DNA of 64,000 bases from Gossypium raimondii (Eukaryota > Streptophyta > Magnoliopsida > Malvales > Malvaceae), in assembly GCF_025698545.1 (NCBI RefSeq), contig NC_068576.1:2157928-2221927 (forward strand), in the 5' to 3' direction. Below the pieces are notes generated by a model. That model was not told the DNA's origin. It saw nothing but the letters and a program-made list of their open reading frames with translations, and ran no database searches. The position numbers and the translations under genes are program-made. This document shows, one piece after another, positions 1,251 to 53,494 of this stretch. Within the stretch, counting starts at the first letter, position 1, and the number at the start of each line of letters is the position of its first letter.

Positions 1251-4200
1251 CATAGCAATTGAGGTAATAGTGGAGAAACTCGCATTGTTTAGGTATTAAT
1301 AACAATTTAGCTCAAGTGGTAGCCTAGTCAACTGGAACGTGAGCAGGTGCCGAGGCTTCACACCCGAGCAATGTGTAAGAGGGTCGACCATGGTCAGGCA
1401 TTGGGCCTAGCCAACTGGCAGGTGCCTAGCAAAAGGGGCTAAGGCATCGCATCCCGGCTAGACAATACTGAGGCGAGCATTATTGAGACATTGTGTATTA
1501 GCCATCTAGGTGCGCGCATAGCATCGGGGGCTTCGCACCTTATAGTGTGTGAGAGCCACATAGAGTACCGCATGGGCAAGTGGTGCATTGAAGAGCCAAC
1601 ATTGTGGTGCGTGTGGAGGTGCGACGAAGCAGCCAACATGAGTGACTGTGGCACTCTTGCGTGGGGGTTCTTTGAGAAATTCATGTGCAGCAGGTTTTTT
1701 TTGCTCTTCATATTGGTGTTAATTCTCGAGGTACATGTTCTTTTGGGAACAGGGTATTTGGCTTTTTCCTAGAAGACTCAAAAAAATACTCTAGAAAAAA
1801 TATTGTAATTTCTTTTCTTTTCTTTTCTTTTTTAAGGAAGAACCATGAAATTTTTTGGTTGGTCAAAATCAATTTTTTTAATTATAATTATGATATTTTG
1901 ATAAATACTGTATGTGATTAATTGTTGTTAAATCGATAAGCATGTCTATGCATATATATTAAAACATGTCATATAGATTAGGAAAGAATGCCACTTCAAC
2001 TTACCTGCATATTAAATCATTTATGCTTGAAATCAAATTAAGCCTTGCATCGTTTTTTAAAAGATTAAGTGGGAGAATGCCCCTAAACAAGACTTACGAC
2101 CTCCATTAATGGTCTATGTGCGATAGCATGATAATACTTCGAGTCAGTTTTACTATAATCGTACCTTATGGTAAGTATTATCGTATGGGTTCACTTGAGA
2201 TTTTCTTTAAGAGGACAACCATTCATATGCATTTCTAGTTAAGGTTATCTCATGATTACTTATAAAAGAGAGCATATTTATGATGGATGTTGAGTCTATA
2301 GTTATACAATCAAGATTGTTTTAGTTGAAAAACTTCCCACGAAGCTCTACTTAAGTTAAAATAATGGTCAAACATGAAACGATTGTTAATATGTGTGGCG
2401 TCTAGGGGTTAGATTTATATATTAACAAGAAATATAACTCCGCGTTGCGGGGTCAAGTTTTAAATAAATTGATATATGATAGCTTGTTCATTTTGCATAA
2501 TTTACGTGTTTAACTCGACTTACTCTCGCTCTGCTAATTGGTGCAATTTTTGTTTAAATATTGTCAGGAACGAAATTTGGGCACTTAAAATAAAAAAATA
2601 AGCAAATAAGGGGCTAAATTGAAACATGAAAAAGAGAAGTGGGGCCGAATTATAAGTTTGGGACATTTGAGGTGCTATTCAAATTTTGACCTTGTAAAAG
2701 CTAAAATTAATAAATTAAATTTGTAATTATTTTGTGTAGATGGAAAAAGCCTAAAATTAGTATGTAGATTTTGTATAAATAGGGAAGGTGGTGCTCTTGA
2801 AAAAGACGCCTTGAATACACTGGAAATTGATGGAATTTAATGCAATTATCCATTTTATTCCTTTTGTTCAAAACGCCAGTAGCTTATTCTTCTCATTCGG
2901 CCAATTTTGTTGTTTCAGTAGCTTTCCATTTCTTTATTGGCTTAATTATTTTCCAAGTTCCCTTTCTTTTCCATCAATCTCCACTACCATTTAATCCTTT
3001 GCCATTAACCAACAAAAGCATGATTAATTTCATGTTTCATTAAATTCTAACTTAGCTTTAGGTCGGTATTCTTTCCGATCAGGAATCGTGAGATATGTAT
3101 CCGTACTAAAAATTATTTCAATCGGTATTCATTATTTTTCCTAAATATCGGGATTGACAAATTCATAACTTAAAGTTAGCTCAATTTCAAATCAAAAAGC
3201 GCGTTGGGTAGGAGTCGTGTTTGCAGACAGTTGGGGAAACGAGTCGGCCATGTTGTATTCGGATCTCCGAGAACAAATCAAGAGAGAGAGTGATCGAGTT
3301 TAAATGTCCCGCGCAGTTGAGACTGTTTATTCGAGTTGGGTTCTTCAAAGCACAAGGCTGCCAGAATCTTGAATCAGGAACGCATGTATTGCGGTTAGAT
3401 AATAGAAAATGGTTGGTTTGCAGGTCGTATCGGGACCAACTACGAAAGGAAGAATTGACGATTATGACGCTCTTAGCCGTTATAACCAGCTTATTGTTTG
3501 GGGGAGAATAATTTTCAAGGATCGGTTTAAAGATCAGAATTCACCAGTCTAGGGCTAAGGCTTACTTTTTATGTTATCAAAACTCAAAATTTATTTCTAA
3601 TTTAATTTTTAATTCTGATTTACTTAATTATTTATTTTGTCTCTGTTATTTCATTTCTAAACGTTTCAAAATTCCACTAATCTATTTTATCTATTTTTTA
3701 GCAGGCCATTTGGAGTTGTGGGCACGACTATTGCCACAACAAAATTCTATCCACGAGAAAAATACAAAAATTGATTTGAGCCCAACCCCTGTGGAGATCC
3801 TACTACTACTCTTTACTACTGTTTAGAGTTCGTTTATTGTAGGAATTATTTTTATTTAAGAGTTTCAATGCCCATTAATATAACATTTTTATATAAAAAT
3901 AAAACTTAAAAATCAAAAGAAAAAAAAATGAAAATACCAAAATATATGATCAGTAAAAATGAAATTTGAAGAGATGTAAATAATCTTTAAAACGTAAGAT
4001 TAATTAAATTAAATGAATGATAACTACACTATCAGCTCATATAGAAGCGTTTTACATGTACTTAAGTAAATAATAAAATGATAATTTTAATAATTTTAAT
4101 AACTGTAACGTCTAAATAGATAAATAAGAATCATTAATATATAATAATGTTTAAATATAATTTACAATAAAATTAAATGTACAATAATAAAATTTATTTC

Positions 4201-43390: not shown

Positions 43391-44887
43391 AACTTTAGCT
43401 AGTGAGTTTCTAACAATCAATTTTTATTGAGAACAAACAACATATGAGAATTCTTTTAAATTAAAGAATATTCTAGTTTTTTAATGAATGTCCATATGAA
43501 TTCTTAATTAATTTTCGCAGCATATATGACCCAGGATGGTCTAACTGGTCACGCCAAGTAGTAAATGCATTTGTATCAGTAAACTTTTATTTTACTTTAA
43601 CATGTGTTTCAATTGTACTAAATTGAAACAAATTAATAATTTTACTATCATTACTTTTACTTTGCATCCACCTATAAGTGCTATTGTGACATTTACTACA
43701 AGGGTTTTCAAGCAAGCATTACGCAGCACCAAGATGTTAAGACTCTCATAGTATGTCATATACTTGATGCTACTAGAGAGGTGGTGGCTAGTGTTACTAG
43801 CATAGAAGCAATTGTAAGTAGGGTTTGAACAAGTTGTTTGTTTTATATATCACTAAAAGTAGGAACTTATATAAGTTTTAAAAGTAGGAACTTATATAAG
43901 TTTTAAGAACTATACTTAATTCTGTACTTCTTTTCACTCATTGTTTTGACTTAATACAAGAAATGTTTCTTACACTTGAGTGGATTCAACAATTCAAGAA
44001 CACAATACATTTTGCTCTTTTATTGATGGTTGATGCAAATTTGAGTCCTCCTGCTTTAGAAGTTTCTTGCCAACGTACTTTTAAAACATCACTTTAGATT
44101 TGTTTCTCCGCAGTAGCAACAAAGTCAAATGTCCCAGTGGGGTTTGAACCTGTATCGATTGCAAAATCTAAAATAATTGCTCCGATTGTAAAGTATGTGA
44201 GTGCTCTTTCTTGTTGCAGTTTTATACTAATCCGTGATCTTATTTGTAAGTTACAGTTGAGTGATTTCCTTACAGTTATCTCTCTCTTGCTATCTTTTGG
44301 TTACTAATCAAGAGGTTTTCTGCAGATTACTTTTGCTTCACCTAATGAAGAAAATTAATCGCTATGGAAAATGCTTTATTTTCTCAAAATTTATTTTGTC
44401 CAATTAAAAGGAATAATTGTTCAACGGATGCTTTGTTCCAAATGTTAAAACCAACAATCTGGCTTTTGTTTGAGAAGGGTGTAAAAATTCTTGTTTTGAC
44501 TATTGGTTCAAATGGTGTACTTTTATGCACTAAAGGGGAATTAATCTCTTAGAGGATTTGTTTGGAAAAGACATAACAACATGGATTTAGTCAACAGTTA
44601 TTTGAAAATATGACATCAAACTATCATTTAAATTTGTATTCTGATTTTAAAGTTCTTAATAGAAGCCCAAATTTCTTAGCTATGCATTTTCTTGCACTCC
44701 CTGCATCTGTTGTAAGGCTTACAGGAGCTGGTGATTGTCTAGTCGGTGGAATGCTTGCATCCCTTTCTACAGGTTTAGATATGATGCAGAGTGTAGCAAT
44801 TGGTATAGCTGCAGCTAAAGCCTCGGTTGAGGTGGACAGTAATGTACCTTCTCAGTTTAGTTTGCCAACAATTACAGGTACCTTTGA

Positions 44888-45192
44888 TTTTAGATCATTA
44901 TTGCTTTGGGTATTGTTTAAGCATTAGTTTGTAACTTAAATATTTATATGAATAACGTGGAAGCAAATTTCATTCCATTATGCATGTGATGTCATGATTG
45001 TATATTCATCTGCCAAACTCTTACAACCTCAATCTAAGTTGTAATGTCCGAAGAAGGGGTATGGAGTTTTGGTAAACATTTAAAGTTAGAGCTATATGTG
45101 CTTGCCTCTTTTATTGTTATACCAAAAAATTATCTAAAAAATTGTGACTTGAGCTTTATACACCATATTTGTAGAATAAATAACAATGCAAC
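44888..45192 (+). repeat. Direct repeat, copy 1 (pfkB last intron, exon and 3' flank)
   Basis: About 300 bp from TTTAGATCAT to GCAACCTTATATTT, roughly 85-90 percent like 47644-47955 by eye. It includes the last intron, the terminal exon and some 3' flank of the kinase pseudogene. This copy is the more decayed in the exon: the D-A-S-I-V run of copy 2 is D-V-M-I-V here and the acceptor CAG is changed to CAT. Confidence 0.85.
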
Positions 45193-45907
45193 CTTATATT
45201 TTTTCAATCCACACAATGCCAATGATATAATATAATTAACTCTTTGATTGAACTATGAATTCCACTGTTGCTAGTAAAGTCATGCCATACACAAGTTATG
45301 TACCCAAAATACCGGCTATAGGCTTGGTCATCTTTAGAGCATAAGCATCCACTTATATCAAAGCACATGAGTTACATACACATGATCAGTGACTGACTCA
45401 GGATTTAGGTAAATCATGCCATGAACGTCACAAGTGAATTAATTCAAAAACGAATTCAGAATTAATTCATCTTTGGTCTAGTCTAATGTATCATTCTACC
45501 AATGAATACATCTATGTCTTTACTCATGGAGTCAACTTCTTCGGTAGCCAAGACTAGTCATCTTCCCAATTGAAATTGTAGACGACAAAATAATCCTTCT
45601 CAGTATTTGAATCAAATGCTCACTTTGATTCTTTTACAGGATTACAGACTCATTTAGATTATCTACTGAAGTAAGTTATCTTTCTCGCAATGTAAACGTT
45701 CTTTACAATGCTACTTATCTTCAGTTTGAACTTTAGAGAAATAATGAGCTAATATTTGCTTGTCACAATTTCACTATGCATACAAAATATAAAAGATATA
45801 AATACAAAAGACATAATAGTGAAATGTGAAATTAACTTTATTTATTTATTTATCGTTCAAATAAATAGAAAATAGTTACATGTTTAGTACAATATGGGCA
45901 CATTTTC
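45193..45907. mobile_element. Unclassified retroelement sequence between the repeat copies
   Basis: No coding sequence recognised. It precedes a copia polymerase fragment but does not resemble the LTR at 47205-47643. TTTATTTATTTATCG at about 45838 and a set of direct A/T-rich words suggest LTR material of another family. Confidence 0.35.
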
Positions 45908-47955: not shown

Positions 47956-48161
47956 GGTTGGCATGACCAGGGATTTAAATAGCGGTCCGATATCGGAATA
48001 GCGGCCGCTATATAGCGATAGCGGCGCCGTCCGAAACCGCTATTGCTAAAAATAGCGGTGTGAAGCGGAGTCACACCGATAGCGGTGGATTGCGGCTGCA
48101 ATTTAACGGGTAACGGCCAATTACGGGAATAACAGGCCGCTATTTCCGTTATTTTTTGTTA

Positions 48162-48346
48162 CAGTGGTTAAAGCAGCATCGGATTGAAAAAGACCCCTTC
48201 TTTTGAGCAAGAGTGAGTAGTAGCTAAGATCTTGAGGTTTTCAACGTACTCGCTGTCCATGGTTGGGTCGATTCTGCCGGGGCCGGTGGAATTGTACAAT
48301 CGACGCGAAACAGCCGGGCAATAGGATATGCCGATTGTATGACCAC
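48162..48346 (-). pseudogene. Class III peroxidase fragment inside the hAT element
   Basis: After a preserved acceptor (TTTGTTTTCTAG) the minus strand reads GGHTIGISYCPAVSRRLYNS, then TGPGRIDPTMDSEYVENLK. The GGHTIG block contains the proximal haem-ligand His of secretory plant peroxidases, and RLYN..G..DP.MDSEY..NLK is the usual continuation. After NLK an internal deletion and frame change lead to SYYSLLLKRRGLFQSDAALT, which is the later peroxidase block. So this is one exon with a deletion that removes about 25-30 codons. It cannot make peroxidase. The source gene is not in the window. Confidence 0.85.
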
Positions 48347-48377
48347 CTAGAAAACAAATGAGAGCACTTTGAACAGC

Positions 48378-48540
48378 CGAGAAGCCTGAGAACATTTCCC
48401 CAAAGGAACAGTGAAGCAAAGATGAAGATGATGAGCCATGAAGCGACAGTGATGAAGTTGAACTGATATACTTGAAGCAATATCCATGTTGCTGTTGAAA
48501 CCAGAACAACTGTTGCACACTTGCACTCACTTTCTTTCTC
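48378..48540 (-). pseudogene. Reticulon-like (RTNLB) exon fragment inside the hAT element
   Basis: After the acceptor ATATTTCAG the minus strand reads RKKVSASV, then with a one-base frame change ATVVLVSTATWILLQVYQFN, FITVASWLIIFIFASLFLWG, NVLRLLG. The order W-R-K-K, a first hydrophobic segment, a short hydrophilic turn, then a second hydrophobic segment ending LFLWGN fits the start of the reticulon homology domain of plant ER-shaping reticulon-like proteins. It is a single exon piece joined directly to the 3' end of a peroxidase intron. Identification is by pattern and less certain than the peroxidase. Confidence 0.6.
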
Positions 48541-48939
48541 CTGAAATATTTTTGAAAGAAAGTAGTTTGGGGGTGTATTCCTTTGTGTTTTCAAGTAATG
48601 AAACGTTGAATTTGTTGATTGAAAAAATTAAGTGAAGAACAAAGAGGAGTTTGTTTGATTTACACATGCACAAGTGTAGAGAACAACGTGGAAGCCATGC
48701 AACAGTCGGTAAAACTGGAGAACTAAATGGTCAAGTTAAGCCCTTGGTTACCAAAGAGAGTAAGGAGAGTAGTGAAGTTGTGGAAAGGGCTTGGAATGTT
48801 TTACAATAAGTTGTGGGAATTTTAAAAAAATTCACTACCGCGATACCCGCAATGACCGCAATAGCATCTGTTATGTCCGCAACCGCGATAAACGCAACGC
48901 GACCGAAAACGCGGCCGCGACCGCAATTTAAATCCCTGG

Positions 48940-50257
48940 GCGCATGACTATATCTTGTTTTCTCAATCTACTACTAAACTGATATTTTTTTAGATTTACC
49001 TATTATAAAATTTGAAGGGAACATATACTGATCTTTGTTGTTGCAAGGAATTGGATTGCTTTTGTTACCAAGGTATTGTTTGTTTTGGAGATCTAAGGTT
49101 TGTTTCTCATGGTTTTACTTTTTTTTGAAATGCATCCGAATAAGGAAGGGCGAGCTTTGTTTCCCGAAACCATAATCCAATCCTTGACTAGATACCTCAA
49201 TGCTCATGGATCCATGTGTTTCCAGTTTTTTTTTCAGAATTTGTTCAACCATATTGGAGTGCCCTTCTTTTAGTTGATAGAAGAATTATTAATATTTTTA
49301 CATTGATTATTAAAATGCTTTGCTTGTGAGTCGTCAACTTTCGTTTTTCAGTTTCTAGTTCGTCTTTAAAGATATACTTCAACACATCGTAGCAATTGCA
49401 GATAACGAACTTCCAACTCCTCGTAATCAAGAATTACAACAGGATATAGGATTGGATAGCTCTTCCACATTTCATTTGAGCTAAACCTAAATAATGAATA
49501 GGGTTCATGGCTATGGTTGGATGGCTTCGGTTCAGTTCATGAGGCTTGTTCAATGGGGTAGTTGGATGGATTTAGCTCATTAGTTTGAACTGGGTTGATG
49601 GTTTTAGTTTTGATGCAAGGAATTTAGAACATGATTACTGGATCTCTTCTCAAATCTCTCAATAATTAATAATTAAACTATTATAGAATCACGATTATCC
49701 AGATTAAAGCTGGCCTGTAAAGTAGAGGATTATTCTTTTGTTACAATTTGTATATTTTTTATATGAAAGCTACTATATAGATTTTTATTGATGAATTTGC
49801 TTGGATTTCGAATATGGTATCCACATTATCGTATATTTAGGATATAAATGTGTATTTAAAATAACAAATAATAAATAATGAAGGGCAATGTCTGAAATTA
49901 TTAATAATAATAACAATAACATATATGCAATATGTACGTAAAATAAAAATATAACTTAAATTACAAGTAAAAGAAATTTAGAAACGTAAATATATTATAT
50001 TAACAATATTAAATGCACTCAATTGTTATTTATAATATCGTCATGTCAAATAGACTTATAACACTATCAACTATATTATCAAAAATATATAAATAATATG
50101 GGTAAATAATTTTAAAATAAATATTGATGATATACAAATTTTTCTAAATTCAAATCTACCTTACTTAGATTTTACCATAAAAACATATCTCTTTCTGTGT
50201 CCGGTGAAAATGAAAAAAGCATCAAGCAAGGGAAAACTAAAATATTCTAGCAATTGG
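48940..50257. other. Non-coding, AT-rich, no gene seen
   Basis: Continues the 3' flank of the kinase pseudogene, then AT-rich intergenic DNA. A 61-codon frame on the minus strand (49245-49430) has no domain. Confidence 0.5.
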
Positions 50258-51794: not shown

Positions 51795-53494
51795 ATGAAA
51801 TTGCAACCAAAACATGGTTGGCACTCTATTATGCCTCTTCGACGCCGAGGCAATTCTGGTACTCAATTTTGTATGTTTCCGAAAGCAAAGTCGGCAGGCT
51901 GTAGTCCTGGCAATGCTCCTGTCTACCTTAATGTGTATGACTTAACAAATGTCAATGGCTATGTTTATTGGGCAGGTCTTGGTATCTTCCACACTGGGGT
52001 TGAAGGTTAGCTTTGTTTCTTTGTTCATCAGTTTTCTTGGGCATTTATTTGGCTTGAAACTGTTATAATGGTATCTAAAAGTCTTCGAATGCAAAAGATG
52101 TCAGTCATTATCTTTCTTTTAATTTGCAAAAGCGTGAGACCGTTATGCAACTCAAGTAACTAGTTATTGCTTTTGCTACTATGCGATCGCATTGGCACCG
52201 GGGAAGCATAAGGTTGTTGTCTATTGTTAGGCCGGGAAGGAGGGACCAAACAGTGAATTGGTGCAGATTTATTATATCAGAAACTTAGCATTTGCCCTCT
52301 AATTGTTCACCGATAAATGCTCTGCTATGATATGACATGAGCTCATCTTCTTTAGACTAACTATGATATGACAAGTAAAATCCTTCATTTTCTCCTTGCT
52401 TCATAAATTCCAAGATGTATTCTCAAGGTTTCTTTGGTTATCTATAAACAAGCAAGGAAGTGTATCTGATGGCTGTCAATCATGAGACATGAAATTGAAT
52501 AAACTTTTTTTTTTCCTCATAAAACAAGAAATTACATAGTTTTGCATTATTTTATAGTATTCTCATGATGTTTGCATGCTTACAGTTCAAGGTGTAGAGT
52601 ATGCCTTTGGAGCTCATGACTACCCAACTAGTGGAGTATTTGAGGTTGAACCTCGACAGTGCCCCGGATTCAAGTTTAGGAAATCAATTTTCATGGGAAC
52701 AACATGCTTGGATCCTGTCCAGCTAAGAGAATTTGTGGAACACCAATCTGCAAGTTACAATGGTGACTCATATAACTTGATTTATAAGAACTGCAACCAT
52801 TTCTGTGAAGATATATGTTACAAGCTGACAGGGAACCATACACCAAAGTGGGTGAATCGACTTGCAAGAATCGGTACTATAAATTGAGCCTAAAATTCTT
52901 TGGGGTCAACAACATATCTTTGCTTGAATGCTTTAGTATATATGTTGGTGTTGATGGAGCCTTAATGAACTATTCTAACCCGAATTTTTAATTCAACACT
53001 TTAGGCAACCCTTTCTTTACTTTATGCCATTGAGAGTTGCTTATCACATGTTACTTCCTACTTTTCTAGAGCACGAGGTGTTTAGTAGGCTTATGATATA
53101 CACCTTATGCTGAAGCTATATTATTATTGTTGATAGAGATGATTTACCGATATAGATTATAACCGAAGCAGAATCAATGGCTACAGTAACCTGTCTTGTT
53201 TAGGTCATTAGCAGTCGGTCTTCACCTTGTTATTTTTGGATCCTTCTTGTAGGTTCATTGTGCAACTGCATTCTTCCTGAGGCTCTTAAAGCGTCTGCAG
53301 TGCGCCATGACCCCAACTTCCGACCTGACAGTGAAAAGAAGAGGCTAAGAAGTGCCTTCAGTTGCTTATCCTCAATCTCAATGCCTCAAAAGGAAGTGTC
53401 AATGTCTTCCCTCTTTTTGCACTCTCATTATAAAGGCTGTCTACCGCCATGGGAGTTAAAGAGATCAAAAAGCAGCTCATTGAAACAACAGTGA
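51795..53494 (+). CDS. PPPDE/DeSI-like deubiquitinase or deSUMOylase, 3 exons, complete
   Basis: Papain-fold cysteine peptidase of the PPPDE superfamily, whose members act on ubiquitin or SUMO conjugates; the plant group has unclear substrates. Exons 51795-52005, 52586-52873, 53253-53494 sum to 247 codons (246 aa) with matching phase-1 joins. The domain runs from VYLNVYDLTNVNGYVYWAG (residues 43-61) to about residue 165. The circularly permuted dyad is visible: H66 (GIFHTGVE) and C140 (KNCNHFCEDICYKLTG). Family marks EYAFGAHDYPTSGVFEV and PKWVNRLARIG are intact. The tail is basic and Ser-rich (WELKRSKSSSLKQQ). The ATG at 51795 is chosen over one 21 bases upstream because MKLQPKHGWHS resembles the family start. 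Convergent with HDR. Confidence 0.92.

Follow-up and report, generated by a model that had tools for sequence, protein, structure and literature searches.

The route by which cut-and-paste transposons take up host DNA is under debate, the fusion of neighbouring insertions (PMC8903248) being set against template-switching repair. That acquisition has been less often described for hAT elements, as a preliminary description of the locus reported here remarked, is a fair statement, yet hAT gene capture is already known from grapevine and maize (PMC2528002; PMC3260210; PMC8903248). Pack-hATs, as surveyed in maize and rice, are non-autonomous elements with a hAT-type terminal inverted repeat (TIR), an 8-bp target duplication and captured coding DNA; the same survey reports nested acquisition in a Pack-PIF cluster, where 163 bp were followed by 58 bp of another gene, and mentions similar hAT cases (PMC8903248). 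The maize elements Ds2 and Ds-l4 are hAT elements with gene fragments, Ds-l4 measuring ~1 kb and containing filler DNA; some of the source genes bear introns, and repair errors after excision have been suggested as the origin (PMC3260210). The word stems "mitochondri" and "organell" are absent from the main text of that paper. Among the literature matches listed, no title dealt with the capture or transduplication of gene fragments by hAT elements in cotton, and no open-access title was plainly on organelle DNA in hAT elements.

The window analysed here is a stretch of 64,000 nucleotides (C12:2157928-2221927) of a 751-Mb Gossypium raimondii assembly (750,779,957 bases in 281 contigs). Positions 47968-48938 of the window are occupied by a non-autonomous hAT element of 971 bp (Table 1), which is very probably a Pack-TYPE hAT in which peroxidase DNA is interrupted by reticulon DNA, which has spread to at least eight places and received mitochondrial DNA in two lineages, and in which the foreign DNA is filler from the repair of breaks. 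The element resembles the Pack-hATs of maize and rice in being non-autonomous and in its hAT-type TIR, 8-bp duplication and captured coding DNA; it differs from these, which belong to other families, by the splitting of one donor stretch through a second one and by its mitochondrial patches (PMC8903248). With Ds2 and Ds-l4 it shares membership of the hAT group, a length of ~1 kb (Ds-l4), filler DNA and intron-bearing source genes, whereas the available text on maize describes a compound element with trapped sequences and no comparable two-gene nest (PMC3260210). Grapevine Hatvine-6 is likewise of the hAT family, with common ends and a variable interior that often matches genes, exons and introns included; Hatvine-6 elements, in contrast, reportedly share transposase coding sequence, of which the window element has none (PMC2528002). 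Animal Pack-TIRs, for which gap-filling and FoSTeST models have been proposed, are comparable in their microhomology (median 2 bp), de novo insertions and multi-copy spread after capture, and differ in that they are animal elements and in that the available text mentions no organelle filler (PMC8277862). The layered, partly mitochondrial filling is thus the most informative and special feature of the cotton element.

Table 1. Features of the composite element and of its target site, as positions within the window.
Feature	Position	Strand	Remarks
Left target duplication copy	47960..47967	.	GGCATGAC, 8 bp; single copy at empty sites on C4 and C12
Left terminal inverted repeat	47968..47987	.	CAGGGATTTAAATAGCGGTC
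Left hAT end, terminal plus subterminal zone with GCGG motifs	47968..48165	+	88% over 197 bp to L058
Peroxidase piece 1, from the downstream part of the last exon	48162..48231	-	73 donor bases missing before piece 2
Peroxidase piece 2 (last-exon start, GGHTIG, and intron end with genuine splice acceptor)	48232..48357	-	
Filler, ~14-18 bp, without recognised source	48358..48375	.	between peroxidase intron end and reticulon piece
Reticulon exon 2 piece	48376..48542	-	holds 8-bp near tandem duplication 48513-48528
Reticulon piece upstream of start codon (5' UTR or promoter side)	48541..48714	-	
Peroxidase piece 3 (end of preceding exon, NIPSPFHNFTTLLTLF..LNLT)	48717..48800	-	
Right hAT end	48796..48938	+	92% over 143 bp to 5.6-kb relative L058
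Right terminal inverted repeat	48919..48938	.	
Right target duplication copy	48939..48948	.	GGCGCATGAC, matches the left 8 bp apart from an inserted GC

The preliminary description had placed a 973-bp element at 47967..48939. The element is real, but its span is two bases shorter: a repeat search gives inverted arms at 47967-47987 and 48919-48939, and because other copies read CAGGG to CCCTG, the outermost base on each side (a C and a G) belongs to the target duplication and not to the element. The other boundary features first reported stand, namely the inverted ends (20 bp with one mismatch), the GCGG-rich subterminal zones and an eroded 8-bp target duplication, which is found intact on the left and with the GC insertion on the right; duplications in other copies include GATACAAG/GATACAAG and GATTGCGA/GATTGCGA. 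The consensus start of hAT TIRs is (C/T)A(A/G)NG, which the CAGGG of the window element fits. This TIR start, the 8-bp duplication and ends in common with an element that carries a hAT transposase place the element in the hAT superfamily. Pack-MULEs are defined by 9-11 bp duplications and long TIRs, and a Pack-MULE identity was rejected for an element with 8-bp duplications and a 20-bp TIR.

By itself the end motif is weak evidence for an element, since the window holds 2 matches with up to two mismatches against 0.42 expected, and 2 were reached in 5 of 100 shuffles; the more-than-chance case comes from eight copies with both donor stretches, from their target duplications and from empty sites. 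A search with the joined flanks returned two related element-free sites, on C4 (80%, over the whole query) and on C12 (85%, over the first 201 of 279 bases); in both, the alignment has just one TTGGCATGA(C/T)TATATC where the element would sit. The single target copy at both sites indicates a clean insertion of the element into a low-copy repeat. Plasmid records gave no match.

The composite is present in at least eight copies on seven chromosome-scale contigs: C12 (the window), C8 (twice), C13, C3, C11, C7 and C9. The same eight were obtained from searches with each of the captured pieces (12 of 12 and 9 of 9 candidates scored) and agree with a further peroxidase-piece search, in which the best 40 of 71 candidates were scored; in the search with the whole element, the best 40 of 237 were scored. 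Both gene fragments are found in all eight copies and both inverted ends in seven, the copy on C7 (L014) showing no left end within its fetched flank. The 8-bp duplications are perfect in five of the eight, agree in 7 of 8 bases in one (L010), carry the GC insertion in the window copy and are not assessable in L014. The composite has thus moved as a unit, lying at eight different sites with its own duplications in seven. The further copies and empty sites that the preliminary description had proposed to look for therefore exist in this genome (at least seven of the former and two of the latter), and its model of capture by a hAT element is upheld there by fragments that stay together in 8/8 copies, by ends retained in 7/8 and by the occurrence of those ends on other elements.

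Those other elements are without gene pieces, and their counts are lower bounds. Among 31 non-composite left ends examined, a right end with a matching duplication was missing from the fetched stretch in 22; for one of these (L037) it lay beyond that stretch and was seen when the locus was refetched as L058. Nine short relatives have both ends. L058, a 5.6-kb relative on C6, shares the first 197 bp and the last 143 bp of the window element, is flanked by ATTGGAGC on both sides and contains, in pieces, the Pfam domains DUF659 (E 7.7e-32) and Dimer_Tnp_hAT (PF05699, E 9.2e-7); its transposase is decayed by stop codons and frame breaks, and no active transposase source was seen. Four of the seven L058 pieces scanned had no Pfam match above the cutoff, and a sub-threshold Gag_p17 hit in one of these four (E 0.02) was taken as chance. 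For two of the nine short relatives (L041 and L022, of different kinds), one inner stretch each has 36 and 75 genome-wide matches, several of them inside other relatives of the family, and no donor gene was evident among the matches; these two relatives lend no support to the idea that the family as a whole captures genes habitually, which was rejected. All but ~20 of the 971 bp of the window element are hAT ends or donor-gene DNA. The lack of a transposase, the separate donor loci and the movement of the composite as a unit make it a Pack-TYPE element (Pack-hAT).

The captured fragments of a peroxidase and a reticulon gene had been recognised from the start as lying in one orientation, and both are on the minus strand, just under the curated Pfam cutoffs (PF00141, E 5.4e-6, 26.8 bits against a cutoff of 27; PF02453, E 4.3e-7, 30.4 bits against 31.8); the donor exons of both genes score well above the cutoffs for the same families. 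The parent genes are separate loci on C13 and C10. The three peroxidase pieces map in collinear order to a single stretch of 415 bp in a class III peroxidase gene, C13:17671985-17672399 (L056 3486-3900), of which an inverted near-twin lies ~3 kb apart at C13:17675516-17675931 (L056 7017-7432). Both of these peroxidase genes are 96-97% identical to the eight-copy consensus, the twin being the better match in one A-run; a third peroxidase gene ~13 kb away agrees less well over the last piece (80% with the window copy and 83% with the consensus). The further internal deletion first noted in the peroxidase part was confirmed as the 73 donor bases lost between pieces 1 and 2. The gap separating pieces 2 and 3 amounts to 62 donor bases: 6 from the end of the exon, the 5' splice site and the larger part of an intron of 66 bp (borders judged by eye). 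In their place stand the short filler and the reticulon DNA.

The reticulon DNA (48376-48714) matches C10:11929559-11930063 (L009 3060-3564) and, in the exon part of the eight-copy consensus, shows zero mismatches to the donor besides an 8-base insertion. A 172-bp deletion (L009 3234-3405) joins the upstream piece to exon 2, with CT in common at the join; it took away the start codon together with exon 1, the intron (3303-3379, by eye) and 26 bases from the beginning of exon 2. Splice acceptors had been thought to precede both fragments; that of the peroxidase is genuine, but the reticulon's own acceptor (L009 3374-3379, by eye) falls inside the 172-bp deletion, and the TTTCAG that now precedes the exon piece is donor sequence from upstream of the start codon. 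The 8-base insertion is the near tandem duplication TTGCACAC TTGCACTC of the exon piece (48513-48528), which does not occur in the reticulon donor; in length it would match the footprint of a hAT excision.

The two fragments do not abut, as had been supposed when the third peroxidase piece was missed: the reticulon DNA is nested inside the peroxidase stretch, where it replaces the 62 bp around the peroxidase 5' splice site, with filler on one side. At the outer borders, AGT (CAGT in the consensus) is common to the left hAT end and the peroxidase, and ATGTT (48796-48800) is common to the right hAT end and the peroxidase donor; the join overlaps of 0-5 bases are raw values judged by eye. Intron-derived sequence has been kept and neither deletion lies at splice sites; the captured DNA was therefore genomic.

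Stepwise or template-switch capture, as first suggested from an end-to-end arrangement, is possible, though the arrangement is nested. Whether the peroxidase was captured first and the reticulon inserted later, or both arrived in one template-switching repair event, is evenly balanced. The nested arrangement speaks for two events, as does the lower divergence of the reticulon part from its donor (3/335 mismatches against 8/289 for the peroxidase, in BLAST pieces that overlap by up to 12 bases), and the later mitochondrial patches are cases of patching in an element that was composite beforehand; against this order, the difference in divergence is not significant (Fisher p 0.12) and none of the eight copies found is an element with peroxidase and without reticulon. 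As all eight copies carry both fragments, stepwise and single-event capture are not separable from the copies.

A further layer is formed by DNA matching contig C280 (676,078 bp), which is taken to be the G. raimondii mitochondrial genome because its size equals that of the published one (676,078 bp; PMC5099484). An insert within the peroxidase piece of the copy L015 (C8:52105070-52105147) matches C280:368060-368131 in 72/72 bases, and the same insert is found in the peroxidase piece of L016 (C9:5252333-5252406); at E <=1 it has no other match outside these two copies and C280. A second insert, within the reticulon piece of L014 (C7:52536554-52536623), matches C280:58314-58369 in 56/56 bases and has a nuclear match on C1 at 95%. 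The joins of these patches show 0-2 bases in common (by eye). L015 and L016 group as sister copies in the tree (support 0.98), so that two insertion events account for the mitochondrial DNA in three of the eight copies. A look-up of tRNAs, Rfam families and ORFs around one of the mitochondrial donor sites yielded nothing informative.

A plausible course would begin with breaks inside the element, most plausibly from excision, gap repair or replication there; end joining or template switching, with few bases in common, would have closed them. Foreign filler may have entered in this way, the peroxidase DNA, then or in the same event the reticulon DNA, and mitochondrial DNA later; the patched element would have been mobilised in trans by the transposase of an autonomous relative. 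C280 makes up ~0.09% of the assembly (676,078 of 750,779,957 bases), and it may tentatively be proposed, at somewhat less than even odds, that internal breaks in this hAT lineage were repeatedly mended with filler in which mitochondrial DNA is strongly over-represented. If so, a general patch-repair process acting on the transposon would have gene capture among its results, and the layers of peroxidase, reticulon and mitochondrial DNA would record its successive rounds.

The nesting of the fragments and the inserts of mitochondrial origin speak for filler repair or template switching rather than for the model in which two neighbouring insertions flank host DNA and are later mobilised together. 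That model has been published for Pack-TYPE elements with hAT examples included (PMC8903248), and a raw count of sixteen 13-bp end-like strings with up to three mismatches in four donor-side loci would be in keeping with it. It is unlikely here: the two donors come from separate chromosomes (C13 and C10), the peroxidase is broken by the reticulon DNA within an intron of 66 bp, the captured pieces have no hAT sequence between them, and the donor loci L009, L055 and L056 have no BLAST match to the hAT relative. The mitochondrial patches also fit it poorly, though the nuclear copy on C1 exists for one of them. A lineage that keeps several layers, with one donor split by another and with organelle DNA in two branches that is hard to explain by neighbouring insertions, is a small but testable instance in favour of the repair model for hAT elements; neither a new mechanism nor a new gene is established by it.

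The copies differ from the consensus by 2.5-6.4% and from one another by a mean pairwise K2P distance of 0.080, with short inner branches, as after a copying burst. Neutral rates in plants are roughly 0.3-1.5e-8 per site and year, which would place the burst, as a rough figure, at ~3-15 million years. C>T or G>A changes make up 197 of the 317 differences from the consensus, and CG and CHG sites change ~3 times as often as CHH sites, a pattern such as would be expected of methylated, unselected DNA.

That the element instead functions as a chimeric gene under selection, or gives rise to small RNAs directed at peroxidase or reticulon genes, is very improbable. ATG frames of at least 50 aa do persist in every copy (an 87-aa frame in five of the eight and a 75-aa frame in three), and L016 has a 113-aa ATG frame that reads reticulon sequence; no single such frame is common to all eight, the window copy being without the 87-aa frame. 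Donor sequence is mixed out of register in these frames, both splice donors were left behind (by eye), decay is chiefly by the C>T and G>A changes counted above, and the sequences of the eight copies gave no sign of a functional chimeric gene. Capture through spliced RNA as a cDNA patch, to which the intron-less reticulon piece at first sight points, was rejected on the junctions and can be set aside as next to impossible, the 172-bp loss exceeding the intron and ending in a shared CT and the peroxidase having kept intron sequence.

The window element, for which repair filler remains the preferred account, appears to lie between genes. The nearest gene-like frames are one at 44577-44927, which we take from motifs recognised by eye to be the end of a PfkB-type sugar kinase, and one at 52558-52887, presumably, on the same basis, a PPPDE/DeSI-like exon. 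The sequence around the insertion is locally repeated, as 136 bp of the left flank of the element recur at 87% ~2.8 kb upstream in the window, at 45064-45201.
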